Source: Liolophura sinensis (lineage: Eukaryota > Mollusca > Polyplacophora > Chitonida > Chitonidae). From it: a stretch of 64,000 nucleotides of DNA. The notes below the pieces were generated by a model. The model saw only the letters and a program-made list of their open reading frames with translations, searched no databases and was not told the origin of the DNA. Location of the stretch: the NCBI RefSeq assembly GCF_032854445.1, contig NC_088305.1, positions 7,195,606 through 7,259,605 of the forward strand, given 5' to 3'. Numbering within the stretch: position 1 is the first letter of the stretch; every line of letters starts with the position of its first letter. Of this stretch, positions 19,666 through 61,500 are shown in pieces. The position numbers and the translations under genes were made by a program.

Positions 19666-19904
19666 TCGCTGCTGTTTGAATGAGTGATTATGGCTTAATA
19701 GCACCACTGCGGGATTATTGCAGTCACATTGGGACGAGCCACTGATGGAAGATCCTCTTAAGTAGGGTTATAATGTCAAAATGAGATATTTGATCATACA
19801 ATCTGTGCCTCTATTTTCTGTTAGAATGGTATAACGGTCTATATCAAGTGTCCCCCGAATGCTGGCCTAACTTTAATGGACATTATACATATATACACCA
19901 ATAC

Positions 19905-19960
19905 CTGGTTGAGTCCACTCTAGAAGGATAAACACAAAACACACAGCCGTAAAGCCTGCA
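19905..19960 (-). pseudogene. Remnant of leader exon in duplication unit 1
   Basis: Counterpart of 26999-27056. It keeps the hydrophobic stretch in one frame (AVCFVFILLEW) and a donor-like CAG/GTATTGG, but lacks the ~40 nt holding the acceptor and first codons seen in unit 2. Confidence 0.4.
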
Positions 19961-20049
19961 TGTTTTATTTATGTGTTTGGCTGGTACTGAAATGTGACTG
20001 TTCATCGTATAACGATGATGACTGACGCTTGATATGGCCGCAGTTTTTC

Positions 20050-20800: not shown

Positions 20801-21783
20801 CTTTATGATGATCCCCCAACAGCTCAAAGCGCATAAAACTTGCTCAGTAATTTTTAGTCCTGATATGACATATGACAGCCTGATCATCATTGTTTGTTCG
20901 CATTGACGGTTGTCATGGTAAACAAACCAATCCTGAACTTTCCTGAATTTTATATTTTAACAAATGTATACAAGATGGGGAAAAATAGCCCATCTTGTAC
21001 TTCAATGACTATCCTGTTTAATTCGTCGACAAAAAAGATTAATCTTATATACACTTTTTAAATTTTTTAATAAAGTGAGAGATTTTGAAAGTTTTCAAAA
21101 ATTGTTTTAAAATTTCCATAGGATTATCTCGTTGATTATTCTCATTATCGGCTGTTTATTTAATAATGTGTCAACATTTTCCCAATGGTATGAGAAGCTG
21201 GAGAAATATCTTTTGGGGATTCTTCTCATCAAAATTGAAAGAAAATAAACCCGTACACTTTTAAAAATTATTCTGTTTTATAATCAAAATACAAGCGAAA
21301 TTAAGATGACAACATTAGTACAAAGGGGTAAATGTTAGAAGATTTCAAATATTAAAGTTGACAGTCTACAATTTATTCCTCGAAAACAGAAAACAGTCAA
21401 AAAAGAAAATCTACAACTCTCATGACTCTCCCTATGGGACAAGAAAATTCTGCGCATATTACAGTTCAACCTCACTACTGTGTCACGTCCTACGCCGCCA
21501 TAAATTTGTGTAAAAAGAAACGCAGTAGTGCATGGGCTTGGAACTCATGGAATTATCTCATGAAATACAAAGAAATAAAACAGTTATATTGCCCGCAGCT
21601 ATTCACACAGGCGACACCAGATCACCAGGCGCCGCCTGCTTTGATCTGCTGGAGAAGACCACCAAACTGGCGTTGAGTCATAAATATTCTTTCATAAATG
21701 ACGAGGATCATTGCTATGGGACGATGAAACCTGAAAATGGTCGCCAGAAACCACCACAGATCGCTAACTTTGATAGTTTTGTT

Positions 21784-21902
21784 TGATTTATTTATTTGAT
21801 TGATGTTTTACGCGGTACACAAGAGTATTTCATTAATACGACTGTCGCCAGCATTATGGTGGGTGGAAACCGCGCAGGGTCATGGGGAATCCCACGATCA
21901 TT
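21784..21902 (-). mobile_element. Family-A SINE fragment, duplication unit 1
   Basis: Counterpart of 28577-28690; it predates the duplication. Confidence 0.87.
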
Positions 21903-22589
21903 ATCAGATTGTTTTATAATATCGTTAATATCAACTTGACGCAGACTACATTTGCATTTTAGCTCAAAACAAGATGAAGAAAACATATAGGGCCTATGTT
22001 TTCAATCTGACCACATAAATCCACATATAAATTCAGCTTGTCCCAATGCCCTGACAGTTGATCGCTCCAGGAAGGGAAAAGGCTGCATTTGTTAACCAAA
22101 ATAAACTCATTACAAGACGGTCATTTAAAACAAAAATGATGTTTATATCATGCGTTTTGCTTTAATCAGATGATGTCCTCTTGGCATTCCAAAAAGCATG
22201 CTAGTGAAACCTTATTATCTGCATGACATAATGAAACAAGTCTTAAAATCATGCAATTCATTGTAGTTATTTAACAAAAATATAAAATAATACATGCTGG
22301 ACCGTGACAATCCCTGTTAATCCTTTGTGGTATTGTTATCACTATTGGTAGTGGCGCTTATAAAGTTTTTTATTCCCGTTGTAGTTGTTTATTGTCTACC
22401 TTGCTGTAAGGTCATTTGTCTTTGTCTTTTATTTCCGCACCCATTCAACAACTTTTTCACCACTCTGTTCTCTAATAAATAAATTCATATTATATCCGCG
22501 GGATAACACAAGCCCCTCGGAGTTTCCTCCGCCGTATCATGCGATGCTGTAAAACTTCAAAATTCGTACCGTGAAGCAAATAATAAAAA

Positions 22590-22748
22590 ATGAATACGTC
22601 AGTACATTCAGCTCGTATCATCCACAAACACCGAAATTTGTATAAGGCTCCAAAGAAAAGCCGTTTCTCCTACAAGACATTTCTAGCAATTGCTTTTGAA
22701 CACATAGACTGTAAGGTAACTGAAGACTTTGCTTATGCTTTCTTGTAA
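22590..22748 (+). pseudogene. Truncated copy of the 83-codon ORF in unit 1
   Basis: The first 30-odd codons are identical to 29456 onward. Later substitutions include CAA to TAA, giving an early stop at 22746-22748; alignable sequence continues beyond it. Confidence 0.3.
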
Positions 22749-22834
22749 GGCCTATATTCCAGTATTTGTCATACCCAGAGAGACGGCAGTGAGGCTGACG
22801 GGTTCAGGACACCGGGCATAAGAGCGGACATCCT

Positions 22835-23510
22835 GACTTGAAGCCTATGTCGGATCAACAAGCGCTAAAGCCTCTGTCGAACCACCAAGAGCTAAAGCCT
22901 TTGTCGGACCAGCACGAGCTAAAGTCTCTGTCGGACCACCTAGCGCTAAAGCCTCTGTCGAACCACCAAGAGCTAAAGCTCTGTCGTACCAATAGGAGCG
23001 AAAACCACAGTCGGATCAGCAAGAACTAAAGCCTCTGTCGAACCAGCAAGAGATAAAGCCTCTGTCGGACCAGCAAGGGCTAAAGTCTCTGTCGGACCAA
23101 CAGGAGCGAAAACCTCAGTCGGATCAGCAAGAACTAAAGCCTCTGTCGAACCAGCAAAAGATAAAGCCTCTGTCGGACCAGCAAGGGCTAAAGTCTCTGT
23201 CGGACCACCAAGCGCTAAAGCTCTGTCGTACCAACAAGAGAGAAAGTCTCAGTCGGATCAGCAAGAACTAAAGCCTCTGTCGAACCAACAAGAGCTAAAG
23301 CCTCTGTCGGACCAGCAAGAGCTAAAGTCTCTGTCGGACCACCAAGCGCTAAAGCTCTGTCGTACCAACAAGAGAGAAAGCCTCAGTCGGATCAGCAAGA
23401 ACTAAAGCCTCTGTCGAACCAACAAGAGCTAAAGCCTCTGTCGGACCAGCAAGAGCTAAAGTCTCTGTCGGACCAGCAAGCGCTAAAGTCTCTGTCGTAC
23501 CAGCAAGAGT
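22835..23510. repeat. 27-bp array, duplication unit 1
   Basis: About 25 units of GCTAAAGCCTCTGTCGGACC plus AGCAAGA. In one plus frame the unit reads LKPLSDQQE; in one minus frame AGPTEALAL. A ~160-bp block ending CGTACCAACAAGAGAGAAAG recurs. Confidence 0.92.
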
Positions 23511-26039: not shown

Positions 26040-26625
26040 TATGAAAGGGACATTTTATCATTAAGCACCTGAATAATGGAATTGTTCTATAAACCCCACA
26101 TAAGAAAGGATCTGGCCTCTTAAAGTCACAGAAGAAAGGACATTTTCTCTTTAAGCAGTCGAAGAAAGGAAATTTTCTCTACAACCAACTGAAGACAGAA
26201 CCGGATCTGTTAAAAGCCACTGAAAAAAATGACATTTTCTCTTTAAACAACTGAAGAAAGGAACTTTCTCTAATAGCCATTGAAGAAAGATCTGGCCTCT
26301 TAAAGTCACTAAAGAAAGGACATTTTCTCTTTAAGCAGCTGAATAAAGGAACTTTTCTCTAAAAGCCACTGAACAAAGGACATTTTCTCTTTAAGCAGAT
26401 GAATAAACGAAATATTCTCTAAAAGAATCTGAAGAAAGGCTGGCCTCTTCATGCCACTAAAGAAAGGACATTTTCTCCTTAAGCAGCTGAAGAAGGGAAC
26501 TTTTCTCTAAAAGTCAATGAAGAAAGACCTGGCCTCTTAAAGCCACTGAAGAAAAAACATTTTCTCCTTAAGCACCCGATGAAAGGAACTTTTCTTTAAA
26601 AGCCACTGAAGACAGGAACTGTTCT
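26040..26625. repeat. 30-bp array, duplication unit 2
   Basis: About 19 units of the array at 18535-19665. Confidence 0.88.
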
Positions 26626-26998
26626 CGTTTCGCTGCTGTTTGAATGAGTGATTGTGGCCTAATAGCACCACTCCAGGATTATTGCAGTCACATTGGGACG
26701 AGCCACTCTTAGAAGATCCTCTTAAGTAAAGCTTTCTCTAAAAGCCACCAAAGAAAGGAACTTTTCTCTTTCAATACTGCTTGAATGAGTGATTATGGAC
26801 CAATAGCACCACTTCGGCATTATTGGGACGAGCCACTGTTAGAATATCCTCTTAAGTAAGGTTATAATGTCAAAATGAGATATTTGATCATACAATCTCT
26901 GCCTCTGTTTTCTATTAGAATAGCATAACTGTCTATATCACGTGTCACCCGAGTGTTGGCCTATCTCGAATGGACATTATACATATACACACAAATAC

Positions 26999-27075
26999 CT
27001 GGTTGAGTCCACTCGAGAAGCATGAACACAAAACACACAGCCGTAAAGCCTGCAGTCAGGTGCGGTGTACGAATC
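26999..27075 (-). CDS. Candidate leader exon of the PAN-SRCR gene
   Basis: Read on the minus strand: acceptor CTTTTCAG, then 77 nt, then donor CAG/GTATTT. In the frame whose end phase fits the PAN exon it encodes IRTPHLTAGF followed by a hydrophobic stretch TAVCFVFMLLEW and TQP-G, which looks like a signal peptide. The first base completes a codon ending in G, so a Met split over the upstream intron is possible but unproven. A related remnant lies at 19905-19960 in duplication unit 1. Confidence 0.4.
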
Positions 27076-27189
27076 CTGAAAAGTTAAAGACTTTTATTTA
27101 TGTGTTTGTCTGGTACTGAATTGTGACTGTTCATCGTATGACGAGGATGACCGACGCTTGATATGGCTGCAGTTCTTCAAAACTGGCCT

Positions 27190-27480
27190 GAATACATGAT
27201 TATTCACTCATCCATGACGAGGATCACTCATGACATGGCTGCAATGTTTCCAAACTGGCGTTAAACCATGATTATTCACTCATACATGACGAGGATCACT
27301 CATGACATGGCTGCAATGTTTCCAAACTGGCGTTAAACCATTCTTATTCACTCATACATGGCGAGGATCACTCATGGCATGGCTGCGATGTTTCCAAACT
27401 GGCGTTAAACCATACTTATTCACTCATCCATGACGAGAATCACTCATGATACGGCTAGAATGTTGCCAAATTGGTGTTAA
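27190..27480. repeat. 72-bp array, duplication unit 2
   Basis: About 4 units of the array at 20050-20800. Confidence 0.9.
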
Positions 27481-28576
27481 GCCACAATTATTCATGCCTT
27501 TATGATGATCCCCCAACAGCTGAAGGCTCAGTTCTAGGCTATTTTTATAAAATCTTCTCTAATTTGCATAAAACTTGCTCAGTAATTTTTTAGTCATGAT
27601 ATGACATAAGCCTGATAATCATTGTGTGTTCACGTTGGCGGTTGTCATGGTAACCAAATCTATCTTGAACTTTCCTGGATTTTATATTTTAACAAACGTA
27701 CACAAGATAGGGCAAAATAGCCCATCAGAAAAGTATTTATTAGGGAGATTACTTCAACGACTATCCTGTTTAATTTGTTGATAAAAAGATTAATGTTATA
27801 TACATTTTTAAAAATTTTTAATAAAGTGAGAGATTTTGAAAGTTTTCAAAAATTGTTTTAAATTTTTAAAATTTCTATAAGGATTATCTCGTTGATTATT
27901 CTCATTATCGACTGTCTATTTAATAATGTGTCAACATTTCCCCAATGGTATGCGAAGCTGGAGGAATATCTTTTGGGGATTCTTCTCATCAAAATTGAAA
28001 GAAAATAAACCCGTACTTTTTAAAAATTATTTTGTTTTATATTATCATACAAGCGAAATTAAGATGACAACATTAGTACAAAGGGGAAAATGTTAGAAGA
28101 TTTCAAATATTAAAGCTGACAATCTACAATCAAATCCTGTAAAACAGAAAAAAAAACAAAATCTACAACTCTCAGGGTTCCACCTATGGGGCAAGAATTC
28201 TGCGAATATTACAGTTCAACTTCCCAATTGTGTCACTCCTAAGCCACCATAAATTTGTGAAAAAAGAAACGCAGTAGTGCATGGGCCTGGAACTCATGGC
28301 CTGAATTTCTGTTTACTATGACAATTATCTCATGAAATACAAAGAAATAAAACAGTTATATTGCCCGCAGCTACACCTAGTCACCAGACCAGGCGCTGCC
28401 TGCTTTGATCTGCTGGAGAAGACCAACCAAGACATGGCTAAGATGTCACCAAACTGGCGTTGAGCCATAAATATTCTTTCATTCATGACGAGGATCATTG
28501 CTATGGGTGGATGAAACCTGAGAATGGTCGCCAGAAACCACCACAGATCGCTAACTTTTATAATTTTGTTTTATAT

Positions 28577-28690
28577 ATTTCTTTCATTGATGTTTTACGC
28601 CGTGCTCAAGAGTATTTCGTTGATACAACTGCGGCCAGCATTATGGTGGGAGGAAACCGGGCAGAGCCCTTGGGAAACCCACGATCATTA
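28577..28690 (-). mobile_element. Family-A SINE fragment, duplication unit 2
   Basis: Shares its truncation point (CCCACGATCATTAT) with the unit 1 copy. Confidence 0.87.
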
Positions 28691-28701
28691 TAATATTCTT
28701 G

Positions 28702-28950
28702 TATTTATTAATTTGATTGGTGTTTTACGCCGTACTGAAGAGTATTTTATTTATACGACTGCCGCCAGCATTATGGTGGGAGGAAATCGGGCAGAGCCCG
28801 CGGGAAACCCACGACCATGCGCAGGTTGCTGAACCTTCACGTGGGGCCGGAGAGGAAGCCAGCATGAGCTGGACTTGAACTCACACCGACATAATTGGTG
28901 AGAGACTCCTGGATCATTACGCTGTGCTAGAGCGCTAACCAACTGAGCCT
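28702..28950 (-). mobile_element. Family-A SINE, unit 2 only
   Basis: Full-length copy placed next to the shared fragment and absent from unit 1, so probably inserted after the duplication. Confidence 0.9.
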
Positions 28951-29455
28951 TGCATTTGATAACCAAAATAAACTCATTACAAGACGGCCATTTAAAACAA
29001 AAATGATGTTTATATCATGCGTTCTGCTTTAATCAGATGATGTCCTCTTAGCATTCCAAAAAGCACGCCAGTGAAACCTTACTGTCGGTATGACATAATG
29101 ACACAAGCCTTAAAATCATGCAATTCATTGTAGTTATTTAAGAAAATATAAAATAATACATGCTGGACCGTGACAGTCCCTGTTAATCCTTTGTGGTATT
29201 GTTATCACTATTGGTAGTGGCGCTTATAAAGTTTTTTATTCCCGTTGTAGTTGTTTATTGTCTACCTTGCTGTAAGGTCATTTGTCTTTGTCTTTTATTT
29301 CCGCACCCATTCAACAACTTTTTCACCACTCTGTTCTCTAATAAATAAATTCATATTATATCCGCGGGATAACACAAGCCCCTCGGAGTTTCCTCCGCCG
29401 TATCATGCGATGCTGTAAAACTTCAAAATTCGTACCGTGAAGCAAATAATAAAAA

Positions 29456-29707
29456 ATGAATACGTCAGTACATTCAGCTCGTATCATCCACAAACACCGA
29501 AATTTGTATAAGGCTCCAAAGAAAAGCCGTTTCTCCTACAAGACATTTCTTGTAACTGCTTTTGATCACACAGAATGTACGGTAACTGAAGACTTCGCTG
29601 ATGCTTTATTGCAAGGCCTATATTCCAGTATTTGTCATACCCAAAGAGACGGCAGTGAGGCTTACGGGTTCAGAACACCGGGCATGACAGCGGACATCCT
29701 GACTTAA
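29456..29707 (+). CDS. Hypothetical 83-codon ORF in duplication unit 2
   Basis: ATG to TGA, 83 codons, beginning MNTSVHSARIIHKHRNLY and ending GMTADILT. Basic N-terminal half, no signal peptide or membrane segment, family not recognised. The same stretch in unit 1 (from 22590) stops after 53 codons. It runs directly into a 27-bp array. It may be a fragment of a lost exon or chance; coding status is weak. Confidence 0.25.
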   Translation: MNTSVHSARIIHKHRNLYKAPKKSRFSYKTFLVTAFDHTECTVTEDFADALLQGLYSSICHTQRDGSEAYGFRTPGMTADILT

Positions 29708-29895
29708 AGCCTCTGTTGGATCATCAAGCTAAAGCTTCTGTCGGATCAGCAAGAAAAAAGCCTCTGTCGGGCCACAAAGAGTTAAAGCTTATGTCATGCC
29801 ATCAAGAGCTAAAGCCTCTGTCGGACCAGCAAGAGCTTAAGTCTCTGTTGGGCCACCAAGAGCTAAAGTCTCTGTCGCACCAGCAAGAGCTGAAT
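29705..29895. repeat. 27-bp array, duplication unit 2
   Basis: About 7 units of the array at 22835-23510, directly after the 83-codon ORF. Confidence 0.88.
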
Positions 29896-35620: not shown

Positions 35621-38600
35621 TCAGGACAGTCGCTGGAGACATAATACTTCTCTCTGAACACCTGCAATTAAAATTTGCCCTTTTATTTCTTTAGTAGATT
35701 GATGGGAAGATTATAGTAGATTATTTTTTTCATAATAGCCGGAAGAAAGTGCAAAGATAAGAGAAAACCCTCCACTTTGCCAGGTGCCTGACAAACCTCA
35801 TATGGAGTGAATATGAACGTACAATCTCACTGGTCAACCGTCCGAAATTTCCAGCGAGTCCATCATTTCAACCATCTGAGCTAGGAAGCCTGAAATTATA
35901 GTCCCCACAATTCTGCGCCTTCTACTTTTCACACAAAAAAAACTACCTATGTGCAGTCAGAGGAAGTTTCTGTTTTCTGTTGGAACAACTATATAATATC
36001 TTAAATTTATTTCATTATTTCATTAGTGTTTTGTTCCATACTCAAGCATATTTCATTTATACATGTATGAAAGAGGTTAGCATTATGGTGAGTGGAAATT
36101 GGACATAGCCTCGGGGAAACCCATGATCATCCGGTTGCTAACAGACAGAGTTCTAATACATGTACAAATATGGTTTCGTTCACATGGTGAACGGCACAGA
36201 TGTAACCCTTGTCTCGCACCATATCCTACCTGGGGAACTGAAGGCACTTAATTCCCCTCCCCACCACACTTTTCCTAAAGAGCACCCATTTTTCACGGAC
36301 AGGCCCTTGGACTCTCGCCTACTTCCATACTTAGCCGCTCTCCCCTCTTTGGAAACGGTTTGGCTGCCTTCATCCCGCCTTTGACAATTTAACATGTTTA
36401 AGACTATTGAACTATAAAACATTTCCCACATGTACCATGCAGTCGCCATGTATAATTACACTAACTGCATTGCACCTAAAATTTAGCATTTTTCACCTGA
36501 AACATTTTGTTTGACTGGCTGATTCAGGGCCACTTTAGTGTGTGAGTGAGTGCTTGTCAATTTTCAGTCATATTACCACGAAGGAATCCTTAGAGCGAAT
36601 GTATTGTGCCTCTTTGTTGCAGGACGGATTTCCACCACTCTTTTATTTAGTACTGCTTCAGAGATGCCTTACCGAAGGCAAGTAAGCCACACCACCCGAC
36701 CATTACACTGATACAGGTCAACCAGTCGTTGCACCATCCCCTTCATGCTGAATGTGAAAATGTGTAATTTCTCTTTTAAGGTCTTAGGTGTGAATTGACA
36801 CAGGATTTACCCTGGATCTACTGCCTCCCGAAGCGGACGCTCCACCAAGGGCCACTTTAGAGTTTTATGTGACGTTTGATTACTTTGCTACCGATGTATT
36901 TATTATCAGGAGAACATTAGTGTCGGCATCAAAAGTATAATTTTACTTAGTAAACACCAGGTGAAATGCAGTAACTGCATTTAGATATTCATGTGTATAT
37001 TGCCACTGGCCAGGATGTGAACATTAATTCGCAGTATGTATTCGCAGTTAAAAATATCGCAGTATGTAAGTTAAATATGCTTACCTGTCTTATGTGTAAC
37101 AGTGGATTCCACGCTGAAAACCTTCTGCTTCTTGACAAAATTCACAAAATCTGCAACTCCGCCTCCCACACCAAAATAGTACACCTTAGCTGCCACATAT
37201 CTGCTATGAGTTAAAGGCTAACTACAGGATTTTAATGAAAGCTTTCCAAACAGAACAGGCAACCTTATACAACTGGTTGCTAAGTATAGCATGGCACAGA
37301 CAACCGCATGAACCAGAAGCGGAGCAAACCAATGCGGGGGATGGGGAGGGGACTGGTGGGCTAGGGGGCTGGGGGGGGAGGGGGGGCGTTTGGGTTGAGG
37401 AAACCAAAGCGAGTGGGGGCGTATGGGTGGAGGAAACCAATGTGGGTGGGGGTGGGGGGGGAGTTTGGGTGGAGGAAACCAAAGCAGGGGGGCTGGGGGA
37501 GTTTGGGTTTAGGAAACCAAAGCGAGGACCAGAGTTAACCACAGATCATTGTCAAATTATTGATGGACAAGTGTGATGTGCTCACCATACTCATCCAATG
37601 TCGGTGGAATTAAAGACAAAAAGTTTTCAACGAGCGTTGGATGGCCCTGTCACTTAGGCCCATGAACTGTCGAATCACAACAACAAGTAAATCGTAAGTC
37701 AACGGTAGACTAGGTTTTGAACCAATCAGAGTGAACAAGTACAACTGACCAACTCCCGACAACGTTAAAAGGATACATTTTTCCAGTCTCTGTGCTGAAC
37801 TTGTAAAATAAGTGATGGAGTTTCTTGTAGTTGGTTGGTTGATATATTGTCTCTGATGTCAGAATGATATCAAACCTGAAACGTAAGACATCATATTGTT
37901 CACATTCGCTTACGTTCAGAATAATCATCATCCTCGCAATACTTTTTGGTACTGGATCTTGGAATTTTCTAACAATTTTATCTGAACATTACACCAATTT
38001 TAACTGTTCTATTTATTTATTTATTTGATTGGTGTTTTACACCGTAATCAAGAATATTTCACTTATATGACGGCTGCCGGCAATATGGGAAACCTACGAC
38101 CAAATTGTTGTTTCATCACATTAATAGTGGAGGAAGGTATGAACGTAAAATCAAAAACTTGGATATCATCTAATTTTTGGATAATATGGATTATCCTGGC
38201 AACTTTTCTTGCTGGTTACGTATCTGCATGCTTGGAAAACCCAGAAAATCAGGAAAAATCATTAAAAAGAGTTGGCTCACAAATAAAAATTAAAATAAAA
38301 TTTGTGTCAACTAATACTAATGAGGTGGTGAAAAATGCATATTTAATTTATAGACCCCAAAAATAAGCTCAAATATCAAGTGTCAAATCTTGATCTGTCA
38401 GAAACGGCTTTGTGGAACCAGCCCTATAGGCCTATAAGACTCTGATCTGAATGTGAACTGGCTGCAGCTGCGCAGCTTGATGTAAACAGGTCCTTACCTG
38501 GCCTCCTTGTCTTCTAGCAGTGAACTCAATGATCCCCAGTCCCCACAGTAGAAATGACACATGCCCTCCACAACATCCCGAGGGGCGTTCAGTAAACAGT

Positions 38601-41600
38601 TAGGCATCGTGTAGTCTGTGATCACCTCCTTGTTCTGTAACACACTACTCAGTTAATCTACATAACGGAGAGGGTAAACAGCCATACAGGGCCTACTATA
38701 AGGTGCTGTACAGCAGATATTAAAGTCTTTATGTAAAACGGATAGATGTGTCTGTCGGTTACCAGAGACTTGAAATGCCACACAGATGGGAACCAGCATT
38801 CTGAGGGTATTTCTTCTGCCACATGTGGGACTGCATGTATACTAAATTAAAATCTGATCATGGCCAATTTAATAAGCTGGTAATTTTGACAACTAAAATT
38901 ACTTCAGAATTAAGAAGTCATCTTCAAAGTATATTGATCATATCTTGAGCATTAAGTTTCCTGAAAAGGTAGTGAAAATTCTGAGACACGGTAACAAATT
39001 AATCATTAGACCTTACTCTGGGGCCCCAGTAGAGCTCACTCTGGGGCCTCAGTAGAGCTCACTCTGGGGCCTCAGTAGAGCTCACTCTGGGGCCTCAGTA
39101 GAGCTCACTCTGGGGCCTCAGTAGAGCTCACTCTGGGGCCTCAGTAGAGCTCACTCTGGGGCCTCAGGCATAGAAACTACAAGCAGCAAAATCTGTACCC
39201 TTGAAATTAATAAAAGTAATTCAGATATAATTAAGGGGTCAATATCTTCAAAGCATGTTCATCAAGAATATGTACTGAAAACTTAAATAAAACTATAGTC
39301 TAGAACTTCATGTATGAAGTCATGAAGTTCTGACCTGAATAAAAAAGTTTAGTACTGTGCCTGGACACCAACAAAGACACCTGGACACCAACAAAGATAC
39401 CACTCTAACAACACACTGGTTTACTTTGAGACATTATAAAGCTAACAAAAAATGATCATAATTTTGTTGAAACTGGATGAAATGAACAAAAAAAAAACCT
39501 GGAGTGTAACATTTCTTGGTGAAGTCATGTACTAAGCTTCAAGTGAGCATAAACAACGGTTTTGAAAGGCAGTCAAGAACAAGACAAAAATGGTCATACT
39601 ATCACTGAATGAATAAAACAGAATAAAACTCAAAACATGATCTTTAACTCATCATGCTGAATCCAAGTACTATGTTTTAATTCAATATGAACAATGTTGA
39701 AAAAAGTCAGGAAAACAGTCAAAGTACAAAAAAACATGACTAAAACAGTCATAATTGATTTGCAGGCAAAAACTTTGTTTTAGCATATGCTTGTAACTTC
39801 AGTTTCTATTTGAAATTTTATACTGATCACTAAAACTGCAGATCAATATTTGTCACATTTTATCACTTTTCTGTAGGCAATCTTCTTTACAACAGAAAGT
39901 AAACAACCTAAAGCTTTAACCCAAAAATTGCTGTATCAGGAACAAATAAGTATTATAAAATATAACTTGGGGCATGTTTGGTGCTAAAACTTACAATTCC
40001 CCATTAGGATATCATCTTACACTTTATTAAGAACAACAGAACTTAGGCCAAATTTGTATCTTTGTCATGAACACTATGAACGTATTTCATGCACAAAAGT
40101 CCTCTCATATCCTAATTTTCAGAATGAAAAACAAGAAACAAATATCCTCCCACTGTAACACGAAGGCCTTAGTTACCAAAGAATGAACTAAGCAGGATGA
40201 AAATGTTTACTTGTACAACTCACATAGTCCTGGAAGGTGACATTTGCCTGGTGTGTGAGGGTGTACAGACCGGGTAGTCCTGCTCCACAGCCTAGCTGAT
40301 GAGGAGAAAATACACCCTGTTATAATACATGCTGGAAGGTGACATTAGCCTGTTGTGTGAGGGTGCACAGACTGGGTAGTCCTGCTCCACAGCCTAGCTG
40401 ATGAGGAGAAAATACATTCTGTTATAATACATGCTGGAAGATGACATAGCCTCCTGTGTGAGGGTGTACAGACCGGGTAGTCCTGCTCCACAGCCTAGCT
40501 GATGAGGAGAAAATACATTCTGTTATAATACATGCTGGAAGATGACATAGCCTCCTGTGTGAGGGTGTACAGACCGGGTAGTCCTGCTCCACAGCCTAGC
40601 TGATGAGGAGAAAATACACTCTGTTATAATACATGCTGGAAGGTGACATTAGCCTGTTGTGTGAGGGTGTACAGACTGGGTATTCCTGCTCCACAGCCGA
40701 GCTGATTAGGAGAAAATACACCCAGTTATAATACATGCTGGAAGGTGGCATTAGCCTGTTGTGTGAGGGCATACAGACTGATGAAGAGTAAGTACACTCT
40801 GTTATAATACATGCTGGAAGGTGACATTAGCCTGTTGTGTGAGGGCGTACAGGCCGGGGAGTCCTGCTCCACAGCCTAGCTGATGAGGAGAAAATACACC
40901 CTGTTATAATACATGCTGGAAGGTGACATTAGCCTGGTGTGTGAGGGTGTACAGACTGGGTAGTCCTGCTCCACAGCCTAGCTGATGAGGAGAAAATACA
41001 CCCTGTTATAATACATGCTGGAAGGTGACATTAACCTGTTGTGTGAGGGCATATAGACTGATGAAGAGAAAATACACTCTGTTATAATACATGCTGGAAG
41101 GTGACATTTGCCTGTTGTGTGAGGGCGTACAGGCCGGGAAGTCCTGCTCCACAGCCTAGCTGATGAGGAGAAAATACACTCTGCTATAATACATGCTGGA
41201 AGGGAACATAAGGCTGTTGTGTGAGGGCGTACAGACTGGGTAGTCCTGCTCCACAGCCTAGCTGATGAGGAGAAAATACACCCTGTTATAATACATGCTG
41301 GAAGGTAACATAAGGCTGTTGTGTGAGGGCGTACAGACTGGGTAGTCCTGCTCCACACTCTAGCTGATGAGGAGAAAATACACTCTGCTATAATACATGC
41401 TGGAAGGTGACATTAACCTGTTGTGTGAGGGCATATAGACTGATGAAGAGAAAATACACTCTGTTATAATACATGCTGGAAGGTGACATTTGCCTGTTGT
41501 GTGAGGGCGTACAGGCCGGGAAGTCCTGCTCCACAGCCTAGCTGATGAGGAGAAAATACACTCTGCTATAATACATGCTGGAAGGGAACATAAGGCTGTT

Positions 41601-44600
41601 GTGTGAGGGCGTACAGACTGGGTAGTCCTGCTCCACAGCCTAGCTGATGAGGAGAAAATACACTCTGTTATAATACATGCTGGAAGGTGACATTAGCCTG
41701 CTGTGTGAGGGTGTACAGACTGGGTAGTCCTGCTCCACAGCCTAGCTGATGAGGAGAAAATACACCCTGTTATAATACATGCTGGAAGGTGACAGCCTGC
41801 TGTGTGAGGGTGTACAGACTGGGTAGTCCTGCTCCACAGCCTAGCTGATGAGGAGAAAATACACCCTGTTATAATACATGCTGGAAAGTGACATTGGCCT
41901 GTTGTGTGAGGGCATACAGACTGATGAAGAGAAAGTACACTCTGTTATAATACATGCTGGAAGATGACCTTAGCCTGCGGTGTGAGGGCGTACAGGCCGG
42001 GGAGTCCTGCTCCACAGCCCAGTTGATGAGGAGAAAATACACTCTGTTATAATACATGCTGGAAGGTGACATTAGCCTGTTGTGTGAGGGCATACAGACC
42101 GGGTAGTCCTGCTCCACAGCCTAGCTGATGAAGAGAAAATACACCCTGTTATAATACATGCTGGAGGGTGACATTAGCCTGTTGTGTGAGGGTGCACAGA
42201 CCGGGTAGTCCTGCTCCACAGCCTAGCTGATGAGGAGAAAATACACTCTGTTATAATACATGCTGGAAGGTGACATTAGCCTGTTGTGTGAGGGTGTACA
42301 GACTGGGTATTCCTGCTCCACAGCCCAGCTGATGAGGAGAAAATACACCCTGTTATAATACATGCTGGAAGGTGACATTAGCTTGTTGTGTGAGGGTGCA
42401 CAGACCGGGTAGTCCTGCTCCACAGCCTAGCTGATGAGGAGAAAATACACCCTGTTATAATACATGCTGGAAGGTGACATTAGCCTGTTGTGTGAGGGTG
42501 TACAGACCGGGTAGTGCTGTTCCACAGCCTAGCTGATGAGGAGAAAAGACACCCTGTTATAATACATGCTGGAAGGTGACATTAGCCTGTTGTGTGAGGG
42601 TGTACAGACCGGGTAGTGCTGTTCCACAGCCTAGCTGATGAGGAGAAAATACACCCTGTTATAATACATGCTGGAAGGTCACATTAGCCTGTGAGGGCGT
42701 ATAGGGCCAGGAAATTATCATGCGTTAGACAACAGAACAATCCCCACAGCATTTATAAATTGTGAACATAAGCAAAGCCTATTTTAGGAAACATGAGGCT
42801 GTGAAGCTGAGTTTTGTAGAAACTCCCATGTCATTTAGACAGTATTTTAACTTTTCCATGCCAGTAAAGCAAGCAGGCCAAGTAAAATAACAAAAGCTTG
42901 GATACCTGTGGGCTGAATCAATCTTTGGTACTGTATTTTTCATGAGTTAAAAAAAACAAAAAATAAATACAGTAAACAAATACAAAAAGTAGATAAGCCT
43001 CTGAAATATTGCTATACATATACCTCCAAAACGCTGAGTCCTCGAAATGCAATCTCTAAACTGCTCAGGTGATTCACCAGATCCAATGAACATTCCCAAA
43101 CCTTCAGACCACCTGTGTGGGGGAGAAATAAACCAGAGTTTTACAGGTACATGTCTAATATCAACTTGATCATACCTGAAACATTCAGTCAAAGGCTCAC
43201 AAATAATCAGAACTTGCCAATGCTGCTAAATACATGTGTGTTTATATCACAGATGCTGTACGGTTTTGCAGCTTCATTATTAGACTCAAATGTTTTACCT
43301 ACTTCTTTAGTCTTTGTTTCTATGAAGAGGCTCATGTGTGTGGTTAAATATGAGAAAGTTTGTTAATAACTTAAAACTGAAGTTAATAACTTAAAACTAA
43401 AGTTTAACTCAAGGACTCTGGTTCCTCCACCCATAAAAACTGACTGGACAGACATTGTACATGCAGAAGTGAAAACTTTTTGAATATGGTGTTTTATTTA
43501 TTTATTTTTTTATTTGATTGCTGTTTTACACCGTACTCAAGAATATTTCACTTATACGATGACGGTCAGCATTATGGTGGGTGGAAACCGGGCAGAGCCC
43601 AGGGGAAACCTACGACCATCCACAGGTTGCTGGCAGACCTTCCCACTTACGGCCGGAGAGGAAGCCAGCGTGAGCTGGACTTGAACTCACAGCGACCGCA
43701 TTGCTGAGTCATTACGCTGCGATAGCGCACTAACCAACTGAGCCACGGAGGCCCCAATATGGCGTTTTAAACAATAAGTAATCAAATAAATAAAAAAATA
43801 AATATGTGCATGAGAAATTCGATCAGCTCTTTTCTCTTAGTTCACTGTATACTCCCCACAAAGTAAGAGGACATGCCGTTAGCACTATATTCTTAAAATC
43901 GAAACACAAACCAAACTGTAGCATACATGTATGAATCAAAGTAAAAAATGTGTTTTCATTTCAAATTTCAATGTCTTCAGGGGCATGATTTATCTTTAAT
44001 GTTTTCTTCACAAAGTACAGACTAAAAAAAATTGTTTTACGGGCAAAATAAATCTTTTCTTCAATGTGAGAGAGGGTATAAAAAATAAAACCAAAACCTG
44101 AAAATTGTCTAACTTGTGGATAAATGTAGATTATCTAGAACACTTCACATGATTGAATAGCCTTTTAAAACAGGAAAATTATTCATCAGCACTGGACAAC
44201 ATAAAAGGTGGATTTTCTGTTTTATTTTTATTCTATTTCTGATCTCTTATTTAGATGGTCCATAAAAATTTGCGAAAGAAAAACAGTTTAACCTTCATAC
44301 ACTCCTGGTAGCAGATCTGACTGAGTGGAGACAGCCTGTGAGATGGCAGACAGTTCACAACTCTCAGCACAAAGCTGCTCCTCAACTTCCTGACAATCCA
44401 GGTACCTAAGCGTTGTCTGTTCATTACAGACGAACAGGTGCTTTGTAACACCCTCAAACTTCTGAAATGCATGAAAACAGTATACCAACTATCATAAAGG
44501 TGAGCTGCAAAGGTTTTTAATATACGTGTACCTCAGAAGTAAACAAAGTTTGCAGAGTAAATATGTGGTGATGACTGAGTTGCATTTCTATTATTTTGCG

Positions 44601-46334
44601 TATGTACACAGCAATTTGTAGCTCAAGTTTGACCAAATATAAAACACAAGTCTTGGTAGTCCATAATGAATACTTTGGGATTTTGGATCATTGTGATGTC
44701 AAAATGTCATCCATCTCACTGTCAAGGACTTCACAAAAATTGTTACATTTTCATCACAAATACAGTGTAGGAATGATATGCAAAGAGAAATAAAAACAAT
44801 ACCAGAAAATACAGAAGCCTTGTATATACTCTAATAAGCCATTTTCGCATTTCACACAGCCACCATTTCTTTTAACAGAAATGTCGTGAAATCTCGCATT
44901 ACAAGGAAGCTGGGTTATAATTTTCACACAACAGCTTATGCTTTAACCTAGCAACAGCAGGCTTATACTACATTAAATATCTGTTTCACTGATTGTTGTT
45001 TCATTGCACTGGAAATTGTTTACCCATTCGCAGTAATTTCTGCGAAATTAAGGGAAAACACAAGGGAAAAACTGAAAATGCCAAGCAAACTGTGCTACTT
45101 TGAAAGGTTGCTGTTTTATTGGCTGTGAAAAGCAGCACCACTCTTACACTTCAAAGGTCACTGTCCGCAACTGGGTGATAATTAGACTACCACTGCTCTA
45201 ACTTTCCAGTTATTTCCTGCATTGGCTATTCCATATTTTTGTAATACATAGGTTAATACCCTTTTAAAGGATTTACCTCCCTTGACAATAGGTATGTGCC
45301 CTTACCATGTATTTCAGTATTACAGCATATGGGACTATTGAAAATATTGCCTTTTACTTTGTCAGTTTCTCAATGCACAAAAGCATATTATAATAATTTC
45401 AAAGTAGTTAACTTTACCAGAAATTTTACAAGCCGATTTTTAGTCACAGCTGATCACTGTAGTTGTATAAATTTCAGCACACCAGTGCATCCAAATGCTA
45501 GCAGCATTGCATAGTTGAACTTAAACCAAAGGGGGGTAATCCATGAAAAGGGAAGTAATCTATATACATGTACATGTATTACAAAAGCACAGAATAGACA
45601 TCAGACAATGTTTCGCAGGTGATCTATGGCATAGGGCTTTCTGGGCTTAGAATCCATCCTGAACCAATTATCAGTCTGTCCCTCCACCTCTTCCCCCCGC
45701 CAGGTAAAACTAACAAATGATCCAAAATGGTACGTCACCTTAAGATCTGCACAGAGAGTCATTTCTTCGGCAGAGTTCTTGTCAGTCTGACTTTTTACAA
45801 CTGGTGTCCCCTCATCCTCCTCATCTGAAACAAAAAAACACTCATGAGCATTCATTTAAATGGTTTTGTATCTCATTTCTTCACTTTAAATTATTTACTT
45901 TTATTTATTTATTCATTTACTTTCATTTTATGTATTTTGTTTGTATGTTGCATGACGTTAGTGTACCTGTATCTCCATGGATGTGGGCCTGAGAATGTTT
46001 GAAAACAAAACCAATTCAATTTGTCTACCTAAACCAGCTCCATGCCCAAACAATGGTTTTCAAAGCTCAGGAAAACCCAACACTGGTCGCAGAGCATTTT
46101 ATCGATGTGGCATTGTACAATACAGAGTATTCTTTGCGTGATTTTATGTAAAATTTCCAAAAATATCTAAGCTGTTGTGGGTAGACCCTACATAAGTTCA
46201 TAACATACTGGCCTACATGCATGACGAATGAAAACTGAAAACTGAAAATTACATTTTCTAACGGTTTTGACTTCAACATCGTTTTCTCCGCAGCTGTTAC
46301 TTGTGGAAGGATCGGGAAAATTGAATTTGAACAT
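35621..46334 (-). CDS. METTL18: Histidine protein methyltransferase 1 homolog, complete, 9 exons
   Basis: A SAM-dependent class I methyltransferase; in other animals and fungi this family methylates a histidine of ribosomal protein L3. Minus-strand exons: 46334-46253, 45824-45739, 44461-44293, 43112-43024, 40295-40224, 38634-38498, 37875-37777, 37200-37085, 35661-35621 (TGA). They total 891 nt (296 residues) with every phase matching; the human protein is somewhat longer, mainly at the N-terminus. Landmarks: start MFKFNFPDPS; SDLLPGVYEGGLKVWEC; SAM loop VLELGCGAGLPG (about 140-150); FQDY; ILTSETIY (about 216-223); YYFGVGGG (about 252-259). The ATG has A at -3. It shares a 210-bp promoter region with GTF3C4. 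Intron 4 holds a large array built from exon 5, and introns 5 and 7 hold smaller arrays. The splice site after exon 1 (AAAAT/GTAATT) is the least certain join. Confidence 0.9.
36000..36145 (-). mobile_element. Family-A SINE, old 3' half
   Basis: TTAGTGTTTTGTTCCATACT to ATCCGGTTGCTAACAGAC, strongly diverged. METTL18 last intron. Confidence 0.7.
36533..36853 (-). mobile_element. Family-B SINE
   Basis: Minus-strand copy from the GTGAGTGAGTGCTTG end to CCCGAAGCGGACGCTCCACC; the tail is altered. METTL18 last intron. Confidence 0.75.
37330..37515. repeat. G-rich repeat in METTL18 intron 7
   Basis: Five variants of GTTTGGGT(T/G)GAGGAAACCA separated by runs of 4-8 G on the plus strand. Read on minus it gives a spurious poly-proline ORF. 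Confidence 0.85.
37777..37875 (-). CDS. METTL18: METTL18 exon 7, ILTSETIY motif
   Basis: A 99-nt exon after TTTCAG, before GTATCC. It encodes FDIILTSETIYQP then NYKKLHHLFYKF, the most recognisable block of the METTL18 family. Confidence 0.88.
38011..38103 (-). mobile_element. Family-A SINE, 3' fragment
   Basis: TTTGATTGGTGTTTTACACC to GGGAAACCTACGACC. METTL18 intron 6. Confidence 0.82.
39006..39170. repeat. 23-bp minisatellite in METTL18 intron 5
   Basis: Seven nearly perfect units of TCTGGGGCCTCAGTAGAGCT plus CAC. Confidence 0.93.
40224..40295 (-). CDS. METTL18: METTL18 exon 5, SAM-binding glycine loop
   Basis: A 72-nt phase-0 exon, read on the minus strand after CTCATCAG and before GTGAGT. 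It encodes LGCGAGLPGLYTLTHQANV followed by TFQDY. It is the terminal unit of a ~25-copy array and the only unit with GACTAT plus a GTGAGT donor; the others read CATGTATTATAA at that point. Confidence 0.88.
40296..42700 (-). repeat. 102-bp exon-derived minisatellite in METTL18 intron 4
   Basis: About 25 units counted from the recurring ATACATGCTGGA. Each full unit holds the 3' splice site CTCATCAG and 66 of the 72 nt of exon 5 on the minus strand, then CAT GTA TTA TAA in place of the last two codons and the donor. Four shorter units (near 40776, 41049, 41428 and 41917) lack about 25 bp around the glycine-loop codons. A ~381-bp block at 41026 recurs at 41407. Confidence 0.93.
43491..43755 (-). 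mobile_element. Family-A SINE, full length
   Basis: Complete from tail to GAGCCACGGAGGCCCC, in METTL18 intron 3, in the same orientation as the gene. Confidence 0.93.
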
Positions 46335-55500: not shown

Positions 55501-58500
55501 TAATATTACAGTTACTTAAGAGAGTTGTCAGGTAGGTCTACAGGTGTGCTTGATGATGAAGGAAAAAATGAGCAATATTAAATTTTAATCAACGAGATAA
55601 CTAAATACATATGTCTTACGACCAGAAAAATGTAAAGGAGAGAAAATTGGTCTTTTGCCACTTTTAGCACTGTGATATCTTGAGAAAAAAAAATTCTAAA
55701 ATTTTGCTATTTTGCTTACTAGATCCATCTAAATGAATCCTGTTGGATCCCACCATGCAATGTAAATGATGGGTGAGCCAGTATGACCTCCAAGTCTGAT
55801 CTAGCCTGTGTACATATAGTTCACCTGGCTTACATTGTTCTTCTTGTCCCTTACAGACATCGCCTGGTCACCTAAATGGGATTGTGTACAAGAAGACTCG
55901 GACATTGAGAAGAATCGGCCAAAATATTCCGGGGGTTTGGAACAGGACAGTTTTTCTCTGCTCGCTATGGCTGTGCGCAGTGGTGAGGTGGTGTTATGGA
56001 AAGTCCTCTGCCAGACTAGATCCAGGTTAGGGTTTTTATACACCGAAGTGGCGAATTGTACTATGATAAAGCGTTGTCTGTACAGGTGGTGTTATGGAAG
56101 GTCCTCTGCCAGACTAGATCTAGGTTAGGGTTTTTATACACCCAAGTGGCGAATTGTATTATGATAAATCGTTGCCTGTACAGGTGGTGTTATGGAAAGT
56201 CCTCTGCCAGACTAGATCCAGGTTAGGGTTTTTATACACCGAAGTGGCGAATTGTATTATGATAAAGCGTTGTCTGTACAGGTGGTGTTATGGAAAGTCC
56301 TCTGCCAGACTAGATCCAGGTTAGGGTTTTTATACACCTAAGTGGTGAATTGTATTATGATAAAGCATTGTCTGTACAGGTGGTGTTATGGAAAGTCCTC
56401 TGCCAGACATTGTCTGTACATATTTTGGTGTTAGCACTGTATCTACAGGACCACTTCACTTAACAGTTGTAGCTTAATCTAAAACTTTATTTGCAATAGA
56501 AACAGTTTTAATCTTAGCTTAAAGTCATATGTCATGTCCAATGTGGTTGGCATCGAAAATAAAAAAAAATTGTCCTGAAAAGTTGTTAAAAGCATACCGG
56601 TATATGAAGATGTAAATGCAGACATCTTGACTGACCAATATCCTGTAAACATCTTCATTTGAATATTACATTGTTAAAGACTTAAGCCTATCCTGCATAC
56701 TGGCAGTATAGACATATCTAGTCTCTGTCGCTCCATCACTGTTGAGAATTGTCACTCTCCTGCTCTCAGAGTGTAGTTTGTCACATAAGCTGAGTACATG
56801 TGTGATTGGAACATGTCATTTAACTAGGAGATTCTTACAGCAGCAGAGGGGCCTCTCTGGCTTAGTTGGTTAGTGTGCTAGCACGACGTAATGACCTAGG
56901 AGCCTCTCATCAGTGCGGTGGCTGTGAGTTCGAATCCAGCTCATGCTGGCTTCCTCTCTGGCCGTAAGTGGGAAGGTCTGCCAACAACCTGCAGATGGTC
57001 GTGCGTTTCCCCTGGGCTCTCCCTGGTTTCCTCCCACCATAATGCTGGCCACCATCGTATAAGTGAAAATATTCTTGAGTATGGCATAAAACACCAATCA
57101 AATAAATATAGCAGCAGATGGTTAAATGTAGTGTGTGCGACCAATTATTTCCAATAATTCCTAAAGTAAATACCAGCCTTCGTCATCTTACCAGAAATTC
57201 AGGGTCAGTGCTGATGGTATAACAGTCTGACTCCACATCATTCCTCTCCTTTAATAACCCCTACACCCCTTGTGTAATTCTGCTTTAACCAATGGTGCTA
57301 GGGTGATTTTAATCTGATTTGATTTAAGCATTTGCATTCAAACTATACGATCCACACTCTACCCGAGGGAAATCCACGACCATCCGCAGGTTGCTGCAGA
57401 CCTTCCCACTTACGGCCGGAGAGGAAGCCAGCATGAGCTGGACTTGAACTCACAGCGACCGCATTGGTGATAGGCTCCAGGGTCATTATGCTGCGATAGC
57501 GTGCTAACCAACTGAGCCACGGAGGAGCCCCTCTGTTTTTTAATCTCTGTGCTACAACATCTGCCCTCTGTCCACAGTGATAACATTTAAAGGCCATTGG
57601 CCTGTATAAAAAAACACATTGTCTTATTCTATATACATATAATCCTATATACATACGATTTTCTAGTTTGTATATTATATAAATGTTATGGTTTTCAAAT
57701 TTTAACTTATGATTGGTTCATTTTAACTGTTTTTAAACATGTTTTTCTATTTTGGATTGATTTTTGGTGTTCTCATGCAAACTATTCAGTGACTCTTATT
57801 TTTAAACTTGTTCTCGCTATGATATGGCTGAAAAATGGCCAATGTGACGTTGAGCCATAATCATTCATTCATTCAATCATAGTGACGACTGGAGCTTGGT
57901 TCTGACCACCTGGGTGAGCGACTCTGAGCCTCAGTGTATACAGTGGTGTCCACACTCAGACAGACAGACAGGTAACTACCATGCCTTCTGCATAATAAGC
58001 TGAATCGATATTTCAGATGTCTTGTGGGTCAAGACAAGGCTCTCACAAACTAACAGTGCCGCTGAGCCGATACACTCTGCACAGCAAGATGTATATCCAG
58101 TCGATCAGCTACCAAGAGATCATGCATCTCAGGTGTGTTAGTTTGCGAGATCCTTTATCTTGTCTCTTCTAATCCTGTGTGAACTGGCGAGACTGCTCAG
58201 GCATTTTATTTTTTTTTTCTGTTGTAGTTCTGGCAAAAAGAAAAACAAAAAGAAAGAGAAACTAGCTATGAGAGGAAAATAGAAAAACTTTAAAAATTTG
58301 AATTTAACATTAGATTATGATCTTTTTTTTTGTGGAGGGTCAGCCAGGTTACACTAAATGACCATATTTGTACTGATGGCATAACTTGGCAGGGTTGCTG
58401 GCCGTGGGTTGTCACAGTGGGGAGGTGTTTGTGTTGGAGGTGTCCCTGGGGGAGGAGATTGAGGTGCTACAGAAGATTATCCTGTGGGCAGAGAAGGACA

Positions 58501-61500
58501 GGATGGCCGTGTCGTGTCTCACATGGGTGAAAAGGGTGAATATAACCATAATTTCTCAACCTTTTCGCATATGGAAGAGCAACTTTCAGTGTAATTAGTG
58601 CACATTGCGGGGCCTCCGTGGCTCAGTCGGTTAGTGCGCTAGCACAGCGTAATGACCCAGGAGCCTCTCACCAATGCGGCCGCTGTGAGTTCAAGTCCGG
58701 CTCATGCTGGCTTCCTCTCCGGCCGTAAGTGGGAAGGTCTGCCAGCAACCTGCGGATGGTCGTGGGTTTCCCCCGGGCTGTGCCCGGTTTCCACCCACCA
58801 TAATGCTGGCCGCCGTCGTATAAGTGAAATATTCTTGAGTGCGGCGTAAAACACCAATCAAATAAATAAATAAATAAATAATGCACATTGCTAAGTTAAT
58901 TTTGTAGACAAAACTTCCATTGGTTGGATTGGCTAATTTGTGGGCTTCACAAAAAGTTTAATTTTATCAGTCTACACAGAACAATGACAAGGTGATATTC
59001 TCGCATATTTTTAGCTACTCTCATGTTACTGTGTTACTATTTGCATGCACTGTCATGCACTATTCTTCATGGCAAATGGGTTTCCACCCTTCACAAACTT
59101 GAGCCTGGAGGATGTCAGTTACGTGTATGTGGTGTTGGCATGATAGAGTGGTATATTCTTCATGGCAAATTGGTTTCCACCCTTCACAAACTTGAGCCTG
59201 GAGGATGTCAGTTATGTGTATGTGGTGTTGGCTTGATAGAGTGGTATTTTCTTCATGGCAAATGGGTTTCCACCCTTCACAAATTTGAGCCTGGAGGATG
59301 TAAGTTACGTGTATGTGGTGTTGGCATGATGGAGTGGTATATTCTTCATGGCAAATGGGTTTCCACCCTTCACAAATTTGAGCCTGGAGGATGTCAGTTG
59401 CGTGTACATGGTGTTGGCATGATAGAGTGGTATTTTCTTCATGGCAAATGGGTTTCCATCCTTCACAAACTTGAGCCTGGAGGATGTAAGTTACGTGTAT
59501 GTGGTGTTGGCATGATGGAGTGGTATATTCTTCATGGCAAATGGGTTTCCACCCTTCACAAATTTGAGCCTGGAGGATGTCAGTTACGTGTACATGGTGT
59601 TGGCATGATAGAGTGGTATATTCTTCATGGCAAATGGGTTTCCACCCTTCACAAACTTGAGCCTGGAGGATGTCAGTTATGTGTATGTGGTGTTGGCATG
59701 ATAGAGTGGTATTTTCTTCATGGCAAATGGGTTTCCACCCTTCACAAACTTGAGCCTGGAGGATGTCAGTTACGTGTATGTGGTGTTGGCATGATAGAGT
59801 GGTATATTCTTCATGGCAAATGGGTTTCCACCCTTCACAAATTTGAGCCTGGAGGATGTCAGTTACGTGTATGTGGTGTTGGCATGATAGAGTGGTATAT
59901 TCTTCATGGCAAATGGGTTTCCACCCTTCACAAACTTGAGCCTGGAGGATGTAAGTTACCTGTATGTGGTGTTGGCATGATAGAGTGGTATATTCTTCAT
60001 GGCAAATGGGTTTCCACCCTTCACAAACTTGAGCCTGGAGGATGTAAGTTACGTGTATGTGGTGTTGGCATGATAGAGTGGTATATTCTTCATGGCAAAT
60101 GGGTTTCCACCCTTCACAAATTTGAGCCTGGAGGATGTCAGTTATGTGTATGTGGTGTTGGCATGATAGAGTGGTATATTCTTCATGGCAAATGGGTTTC
60201 CACCCTTCACAAACTTGAGCCTGGAGGATGTAAGTTACGTGTACATGGTGTTGGCATGATGGAGTGGTATATTCTTCATGGCAAATGGGTTTCCACCCTT
60301 CACAAGCTTGAGCCTGGAGGATGTCAGTTACGTGTATGTGGTGTTGGCATGATAGAGTGGTATTTTCTTCATGGCAAATTGGTTTCCACCCTTCACAAAC
60401 TTCACCCACATTATGTGGGCATTTGTTGCTGTTATTTTTACCTGCTTTTAGTTTTACTTATTGATTATTTTTGCTCTTCAGGTGGATTGTTGTGTATTGC
60501 TCGTCAGTAAGGAGGTCTTTATCATGGGATTTGCTCTCCAAAAGAAGGGAGATAACTTTGATTGTATTTCTGCAACACACACCAGGGGACATCACGCTAT
60601 TAGAGGAACAGGTGAATGATTTCAGAGTTAATCTTTTTGTCCGCTTAGATTCTGTTATCTGTTCGGCAATGTACATGTACGTGCTGGAGTGGGTAGAACA
60701 TTTTATGCCGTGTGTCCATCTGCACTGCATTTCTTTTGCCATTACTCGTCCGTTAATTCTTCGGAGAACGGGAATTACATAAATATGCTGCAATGTTTCT
60801 AAGAGCTTCACATGATTTTTTAATGTATGCATTAACACAAAGTGACTGGAACATGTCATATTTTGAATGCATTGGGCAAGGATTTATTGTTGGGGTGGAT
60901 TAATTGTGAAGAAGAATCACATTTGTCGAGTAAAGCTAAATGATATTAAGAATCCAGTCTGAATTGCTTTCCTAAATTGAAAATAATTGCAGTGTTTTAA
61001 AGCTCATTGTATTTTTTGGACAGTAATACAGAGACGAAAGTTTTCTGTCATGTCCGCTTTTGCCTGGCTTGAAGTCACGAAAGAAGAGATAATGTTACCC
61101 ATCACTAACAAAATTCCATTCACGCCATTTAAACATTTTCATCTTGTTTTCCTTTCTGGTCTTTGCAGCATTTGCAGTGTCGTCAGGAACAGATAACTCC
61201 TGCGTGTTGATGTCGTCAGGAGACGGCTATCTTCAGAGGCTGACGGTTGACCTCAGATACGGTGGTAAGGCAAACGTTGGACCAGCTCAGATAGCAATGT
61301 CTGTATTTATTTATTTATTTATTTATATGATTGGTGTTTTACGCCATACTCAAGAATGTTTCTTGATGACTAATGTTTTTTATGACGGCAACCAGCATTG
61401 TGGTGGGAGGAAACCGGATAGAGCCCGGGGAAAACCCACGGCCATCTGCAGGTTGCTGCCAGACCAGTTTGGTAGGGAATTTTTTTTTTCTTGCTGATTC

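Follow-up and report, generated by a model that had tools for sequence, protein, structure and literature searches.

How does a conserved gene come to carry, within one of its introns, two dozen copies of the edge of its own next exon, and how could its splicing survive them? This question is raised by METTL18 of the chiton Liolophura sinensis, which is encoded on the minus strand of the 64,000-nt stretch of contig NC_088305.1 analysed here (positions 7,195,606 to 7,259,605 of assembly GCF_032854445.1; hereafter the window, to which all coordinates refer). Most of intron 4 of this gene (40296-43023) is filled by an array of 24 tandem decoy units, built from the acceptor and 66 nt of exon 5 and lacking that exon's donor (40332-42670, minus strand), and of a truncated exon fragment of 33 nt on its upstream side (42671-42703, minus strand). 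The final copy of the array is the first 66 nt of the functional exon 5 itself (40224-40295), which codes for the S-adenosylmethionine (SAM)-binding loop. Most probably, the array corresponds to what has been termed a ‘mirage’ in amphioxus, i.e. an ordinary minisatellite spanning an intron-exon boundary in a minisatellite-rich genome, mostly neutral and tolerated since no good donor is available for its decoy acceptors to pair with.

The anatomy of the array was resolved by cutting the minus strand at CATGTATTATA, which yielded 25 units, i.e. the 24 decoys from 42670 to 40332 and the functional-exon unit from 40331 down to 40224. The unit comprises a 36-nt intron end with a pyrimidine tract and the AG, followed by the beginning of the exon, and reads CATGTATTATAACAG.GTGTATTTTCTCCTCATCAG, then exon 5's first 66 nt. 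In the functional unit, the intron end (40296-40331, minus strand) contains TTATAAC, branch-point-like by eye, the pyrimidine tract and CATCAG. Seventeen decoys measure 102 bp, four 76 bp owing to a common 26-nt deletion, two 101 bp and one 99 bp, so that the repeats are head-to-tail and of minisatellite size (76-102 bp). The period-102 rows reported by Tandem Repeats Finder jointly span 40230-42692, and the mean pairwise difference among the 20 near-full-length decoys is 0.07. The acceptor AG is kept in 23 of the 24 decoys, and all of them carry TAA (n=21) or TAG (n=3) following CATGTATTA. Only the last unit possesses the final 6 nt of exon 5 (GACTAT) and the GTGAGT donor, which are found in none of the decoys. 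The first-pass annotation had already described an exon-derived array in this intron, in which the copies share one junction and the last unit is the functional exon, and these points are borne out by the identical boundary in all 24 decoys and by the single occurrence of GACTAT with GTGAGT. Its estimate of about 25 units of 102 bp holds for the number, counting the functional unit, but not for the length of the four 76-bp units, and its end of the array at 42700 has to be moved to about 42703. Its description of a coding exon turned into a minisatellite goes too far: with 66 of the 72 nt of exon 5 included, what is repeated is an intron-exon boundary and not a whole exon, and no coding constraint is visible in the copies.

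The array is confined to this gene. Outside 40201-42720, the best match of the exon 66-mer in the window is only 11 nt long, and a genome-wide DNA search with one unit, covering 632 contigs and 609,464,459 bases and skipping very common words, returned 27 matching pieces, every one of them at the METTL18 locus. Therefore, chance can be ruled out as the origin of the copies. A dispersed transposable or satellite repeat was likewise rejected based on the single locus of the genome matches, again with very common words being skipped by the search. Thus, the array combines head-to-tail repeats of minisatellite size, a unit that includes the boundary and its splice signal and, as far as we read the published cases, the gene specificity of a mirage. 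Tandem arrays of mutually exclusive or alternative exons, as in Dscam, consist of complete exons with their own acceptor and donor. Such an arrangement was rejected as the normal state of METTL18, as no decoy possesses GACTAT|GTGAGT, four carry the 26-nt deletion and two are frameshifted, the weak GTATTA after CAT being left as a possible donor.

The identity of the host gene is well supported. Among solved structures, the best match of its product was 4rfq, annotated as ‘Histidine protein methyltransferase 1 homolog’ and presumably METTL18 itself (E=2.2e-37, residues 110-275), while the next matches, METTL21B (6.7e-8) and METTL21A (8e-6), were far weaker, and Pfam assigned the product to Methyltransf_16 (E=2.9e-11). 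Eight exons were placed on the minus strand between 37085 and 46334, i.e. exon 1 (46253-46334), exon 2 (45739-45824), exon 3 (44293-44461), exon 4 (43024-43112), which is the upstream partner of exon 5 and ends with the donor GAG|GTATAT, exon 5 with its CATCAG acceptor and GTGAGT donor, exon 6 (38498-38634), exon 7 (37777-37875) and exon 8 (37085-37200). Exon 5 is translated as LGCGAGLPGLYTLTHQANVTFQDY (LGCGAGLPG...FQDY) and aligns to the LGCG segment of 4rfq, in agreement with the earlier assignment of the gene and of the glycine loop. The claim of an otherwise intact gene stands insofar as exons 1 to 8 join into a single open frame, but a short last C-terminal exon was looked for and not found. 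A genome-wide Pfam search listed five Methyltransf_16 matches (contigs 1, 3 and 4); METTL18 itself was not among them, and this search is therefore uninformative on paralogues. The genome also contains a cluster of eight hemocyanin domains, in keeping with a mollusc.

Is METTL18 exon 5 then a singular case, as the first-pass annotation had implied by calling the array unusual? Besides the fact that mirages are a named class in amphioxus, according to the excerpted accounts (PMC3087553, PMC3902484), a survey of the same genome argues against this. Exon matches of two large families, kinases and kinesins, were scored for tandem arrays across splice boundaries, with METTL18 exon 5 and a TFIIIC-like exon of the window as positive controls. 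The kinase set comprised 40 short matches (<=300 bp) taken by rank without a stop filter, 17 of which, including L072, hold a stop and thus run past the exon end or represent pseudogenes; the kinesin replicate comprised 60 matches (<=300 bp) taken by rank, none with a stop, from about 35 loci and therefore not all independent. Boundary arrays were found in five kinase matches, at the acceptor side in L037 and L039 and at the donor side in L048, L057 and L072, and in four kinesin matches, at the acceptor side in L078 and at the donor side in L074, L114 and L116. Together, these amount to 9 of 100 short exon matches (three acceptor-side and six donor-side), or 7 of 100 when the small arrays of L072 (about 2 copies) and L114 (2.4 copies) are left out. 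Since the automatic exon ends are rough, it should be noted that eight of the nine arrays were flagged automatically, L072 with a wrong donor that was then read by eye, and that L057 was added by eye; arrays near but not across a boundary (L069, L075, L083 and L112) were left out of the count.

The decoys at these loci mostly retain the splice dinucleotide, i.e. the acceptor AG in 6/6 copies of L037 found by pattern (one place outside the array being omitted), 6/6 of L039 and 5/7 of L078, and the donor GT in 5/6 of L048 (a seventh place being unreadable), 5/5 of L057, 1/1 of L072, 2/2 of L114 and 8/8 of L116, and in 0/3 of L074. At this last locus, unlike the others, GG replaces GT in all three readable decoys, whereas GT persists in the functional copy. 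In L057, four of the five decoy donors read AAG|GTAAGC and outscore the functional AAG|GTATGC; they are spaced 65 nt apart, which makes this kinase exon a good test case for distance rules in donor choice.

Despite this frequency, splice boundaries are not favoured sites of array formation. Of 200 boundaries, 9 lay inside arrays (9/169 when only those placed by automatic scoring are counted), compared with 11618 of 126300 intronic flank positions (9.2%), i.e. a shortfall with two-sided binomial P=0.019 and P=0.084, respectively. Under a strict 8-nt rule, which leaves out L057, the values are 8/200 (P=0.0095) and 8/169 (P=0.045). A simulation for 9/200 gave P=0.0004, but it takes the edges as independent while several stretches overlap or share a gene. 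Exon bodies, with their rough automatic ends, are covered by arrays at 2%. The idea of splice sites as array hotspots is therefore unsupported, as arrays include boundaries no more frequently than they do intronic positions, boundaries being under-represented if anything; we limit our claim to boundaries not being hotspots.

How, then, could the correct acceptor be chosen? Positions -20 to +3 match the functional acceptor exactly in 13 of the 24 decoys, and positions -20 to +20 still do so in 11. The decoy and real acceptors being nearly identical, the acceptor sequence alone cannot select the exon. The donors offer a possible answer: on a profile built from 58 donors of this genome, chosen automatically and picked for good score, the real exon 5 donor scores 7.3, as compared with 4.0, 3.5 and -0.1 (CAT|GTATTA) for the GT sites of a consensus-like unit. 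If the spliceosome pairs an acceptor with the downstream donor across the exon (exon definition), only the last copy, which alone is followed by GTGAGT, would form a proper exon. METTL18 splicing would thus be expected to survive because the decoys carry the acceptor but not the exon's donor, and, judged from the sequence, exon definition by the single GTGAGT is the likeliest selection rule. The locus may therefore represent a natural test, in which the spliceosome would have to pick one of 25 almost equal acceptors that differ only in partner donor and position.

The units themselves bear traces of how the array may have grown. Two pairs are identical (units 12/16 and 13/17, and no others), four pairs differ at a single position (11/15, 1/2, 22/23 and 10/18), and the pair of a long C-rich-type unit and a 76-bp unit recurs four times (7-8, 12-13, 16-17 and 19-20); block duplications within the array are thus clear. 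The exon unit is nearest not to its neighbour, unit 24 (6/102 differences), but to units 9 (2/99) and 18 (2/102), and it groups in a quick tree with units 18, 4, 21, 9 and 10 (split support 0.811), so that it is not clearly exempt from the concerted evolution within the array, as the boundary unit of a mirage would be. At unit columns 81 and 87, which are six bases apart, all four combinations are present among the exon and the units, consistent with either exchange between units or recurrent mutation. We infer that the last 36 nt of the intron and the first 66 nt of exon 5 were first tandemly duplicated as one segment and that the array then expanded by unequal exchange or replication slippage, partly as multi-unit blocks; growth by unequal exchange would leave unit relationships of this kind.

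These relationships also bear on the assembly. Tandem arrays are a common site of assembly errors, and a shorter array could have been expanded, or two haplotypes joined. Yet most units are distinguishable, given that only two pairs are identical, and like arrays occur at the nine sampled loci. Moreover, the high-fidelity (HiFi) reads of the published Liolophura assembly averaged 8,347 bp at 14x according to its description (PMC11068029), exceeding the 2.4-kb array; the species, first given as Liolophura japonica, has since been corrected to L. sinensis (PMC12441733). We therefore hold an artefact to be very improbable.

In favour of the mostly neutral array that we propose, no coding constraint was seen on the decoys, in which the distinct changes of the exon part comprise 14 synonymous and 18 non-synonymous ones (expected synonymous fraction 0.32, P=0.18), two decoys are frameshifted and four carry the 26-nt deletion. 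The counted base changes are 1/44 for the AG, 28/860 for the whole intron part and 83/1479 for the exon part, so that the decoy AG is neither purged nor specially retained. Alternatively, the decoy acceptors could form a functional cluster that tunes METTL18 output, with splicing into a decoy running into a stop within 12 nt and a share of the transcripts being retained or degraded. Decoy exons that promote intron retention exist in mammals. The retention of the AG and, in all units, of the TAA or TAG would suit such a role: reading through from a decoy gives CAT GTA TTA TAA, with the stop at the fourth codon, in frame past the exon part, in the 18 frame-keeping units. In addition, the intronic minisatellite CeRep25B of C. 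elegans is described as over-represented near alternative splicing regions (PMC4039745). However, changes in the AG columns are about as frequent as in the remaining intron part, the RNA fold of the unit shows nothing unusual (z=-0.07), and like arrays at unrelated exons, on either side of the exon, point to a side effect. Regulation by the decoys thus appears improbable to us.

Several observations nevertheless weigh against a neutral minisatellite silenced by the lack of a donor. Firstly, the survey was not uniformly positive, as none of the six other METTL18 exons tested has an array, and none of the 30 best (long) kinase matches has a repeat touching the match, the latter by a stricter search in which exon ends were not located and which had no positive control. 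Secondly, the intron part is less variable than the exon part (pairwise diversity 0.041 vs 0.085), which is the opposite of coding constraint and yet not explained by plain neutrality; considering the variable columns (10/36 vs 28/66), the difference may be due to chance. Thirdly, the weak donors of the unit (4.0, 3.5 and -0.1) overlap in score with the weakest true donors of METTL18 (exon 7, -0.1; exon 3, 2.9), so that a decoy could conceivably be included as an exon. Finally, the decoy donor outscores the functional one in L057, L072 and L114. A missing strong partner site therefore cannot fully account for the choice, and distance must matter too.

The use of CAT|GTATTA together with the CATCAG acceptor is a further such point, as it would yield an extra exon of 69 nt, in frame and free of stops, so that some units could be spliced in as alternative cassette exons giving METTL18 variants. 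The frame of 66 nt is open in 17 of the 24 units, with an open 63-nt frame in one more, and the donor score equals that of exon 7. Against this, a score of -0.1 is lower than the 5th percentile of the profile donors (7.3, n=58), a comparison biased by the choice of donors for good score, the protein would very probably not fold properly with two SAM loops, and the units lack coding constraint. Cassette exons therefore seem to us hardly credible, and a mostly neutral boundary minisatellite remains the preferred explanation.

Similar repeats have been described before. In the excerpted accounts, amphioxus mirages were reported for Adh, two globin genes and TnC, with similar repeats in PGBD5 (PMC3087553, PMC3902484), and reverse transcription PCR suggested that they leave regular splicing undisturbed (PMC3087553). 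Length instability between alleles or cells is a further feature of the class. As at METTL18, the tandem units include an exon edge and its splice signal, and the authentic copy lies beside the duplicates in an otherwise intact gene; as in this chiton, mirages occur at both the acceptor (BflGb6) and the donor side (BflGb9). In contrast, the present host is a mollusc and not a cephalochordate, the 24 decoys compare with 6 and 3 repeat units in the two haplotypes of BflGb6 (PMC3087553), and the chiton array is known from the sequence of one assembly. Among the matches listed in the open-access literature, mirages as a named recurrent class were described for amphioxus only, and no earlier mollusc case of such arrays was found. 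The minisatellite of human IFI6 (6-16), which supplies several splice donors (Turri et al. 1995, as cited in the excerpt of PMC4526556), also holds splice sites beside an exon; it lies, however, at the donor side, with units used as donors in mRNA, while the METTL18 array lies at the acceptor side and is described here at sequence level. Internal tandem repeats at exon-intron boundaries were further reported for human segmental-duplication genes, where they may form introns (PMC2812944, in excerpt, citing the model of Rogers 1989). Such intron gain shares with METTL18 the tandem copying of splice-competent sequence inside a gene; unlike there, no new intron or exon is evident, and the copies sit within an existing intron. 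The METTL18 array thus belongs to a class of repeat that is known but seldom described, and it is a large case of it. What makes it interesting is how many near-identical decoy acceptors it holds and how often such arrays seem to occur in this genome. If the sampled rate holds, boundary minisatellites would be a common source of cryptic splice sites in a mollusc, possibly also of new introns or exon changes.

It is tempting to speculate further, namely that boundary-spanning minisatellites are a genome-wide feature of the chiton, affecting about 1 in 11 short internal exons, and that every array acts as a reservoir for rewriting the exon edge. Because the repeat does not include the real donor, each unequal exchange of the last copy with a full-length inner one would leave a spliceable exon whose first 66 nt derive from the array, and coding exons would thereby undergo a partly concerted evolution with the minisatellites of their own introns. 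We regard this extended scenario as unlikely.

Repeats are abundant in the window as a whole, 25% of which is covered by tandem repeats with a period of at least 10, compared with about 9% of the sampled intronic flank positions elsewhere. A probable second boundary array (98 bp x 4.3; 55986-56408, plus strand) covers the 3' end of an exon and its CAG|GTTAGG donor in a TFIIIC_delta-like gene. It probably spans the donor side of this exon, with a donor-like GTGAGG just ahead of the array leaving the exon end unsettled. The TFIIIC_delta match itself is weak and below the cut-off (E=6.7e-4, 19.5 bits vs 27), and two fragments of the gene, joined as one query, gave no PDB match at E<=1. An exon edge copied in dispersed instead of tandem form was seen in a gene that, by its appearance, we take to be an oxidosqualene cyclase: here, a direct duplicate of about 350 bp (6297-6646 and 9824-10176, 96% identical) takes in an apparent acceptor, GTACAG, and about 50 nt of exon. 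Another array (59061-60402; 93 bp x 14.4, 95% matches), with a period divisible by 3, comes after an exon whose WD40-like match is weak and below the cut-off; the array is open throughout in two frames, one on the plus strand (an open reading frame of 504 aa) and one on the minus strand (465 aa). Lastly, three arrays in 18555-23509 recur in the same order, with almost identical units, in 26117-29891; their periods are 30 bp (at 18555 and 26117), 72 bp (20030 and 27159) and 27 bp (22841 and 29705), and the arrangement suggests a larger duplicated block.

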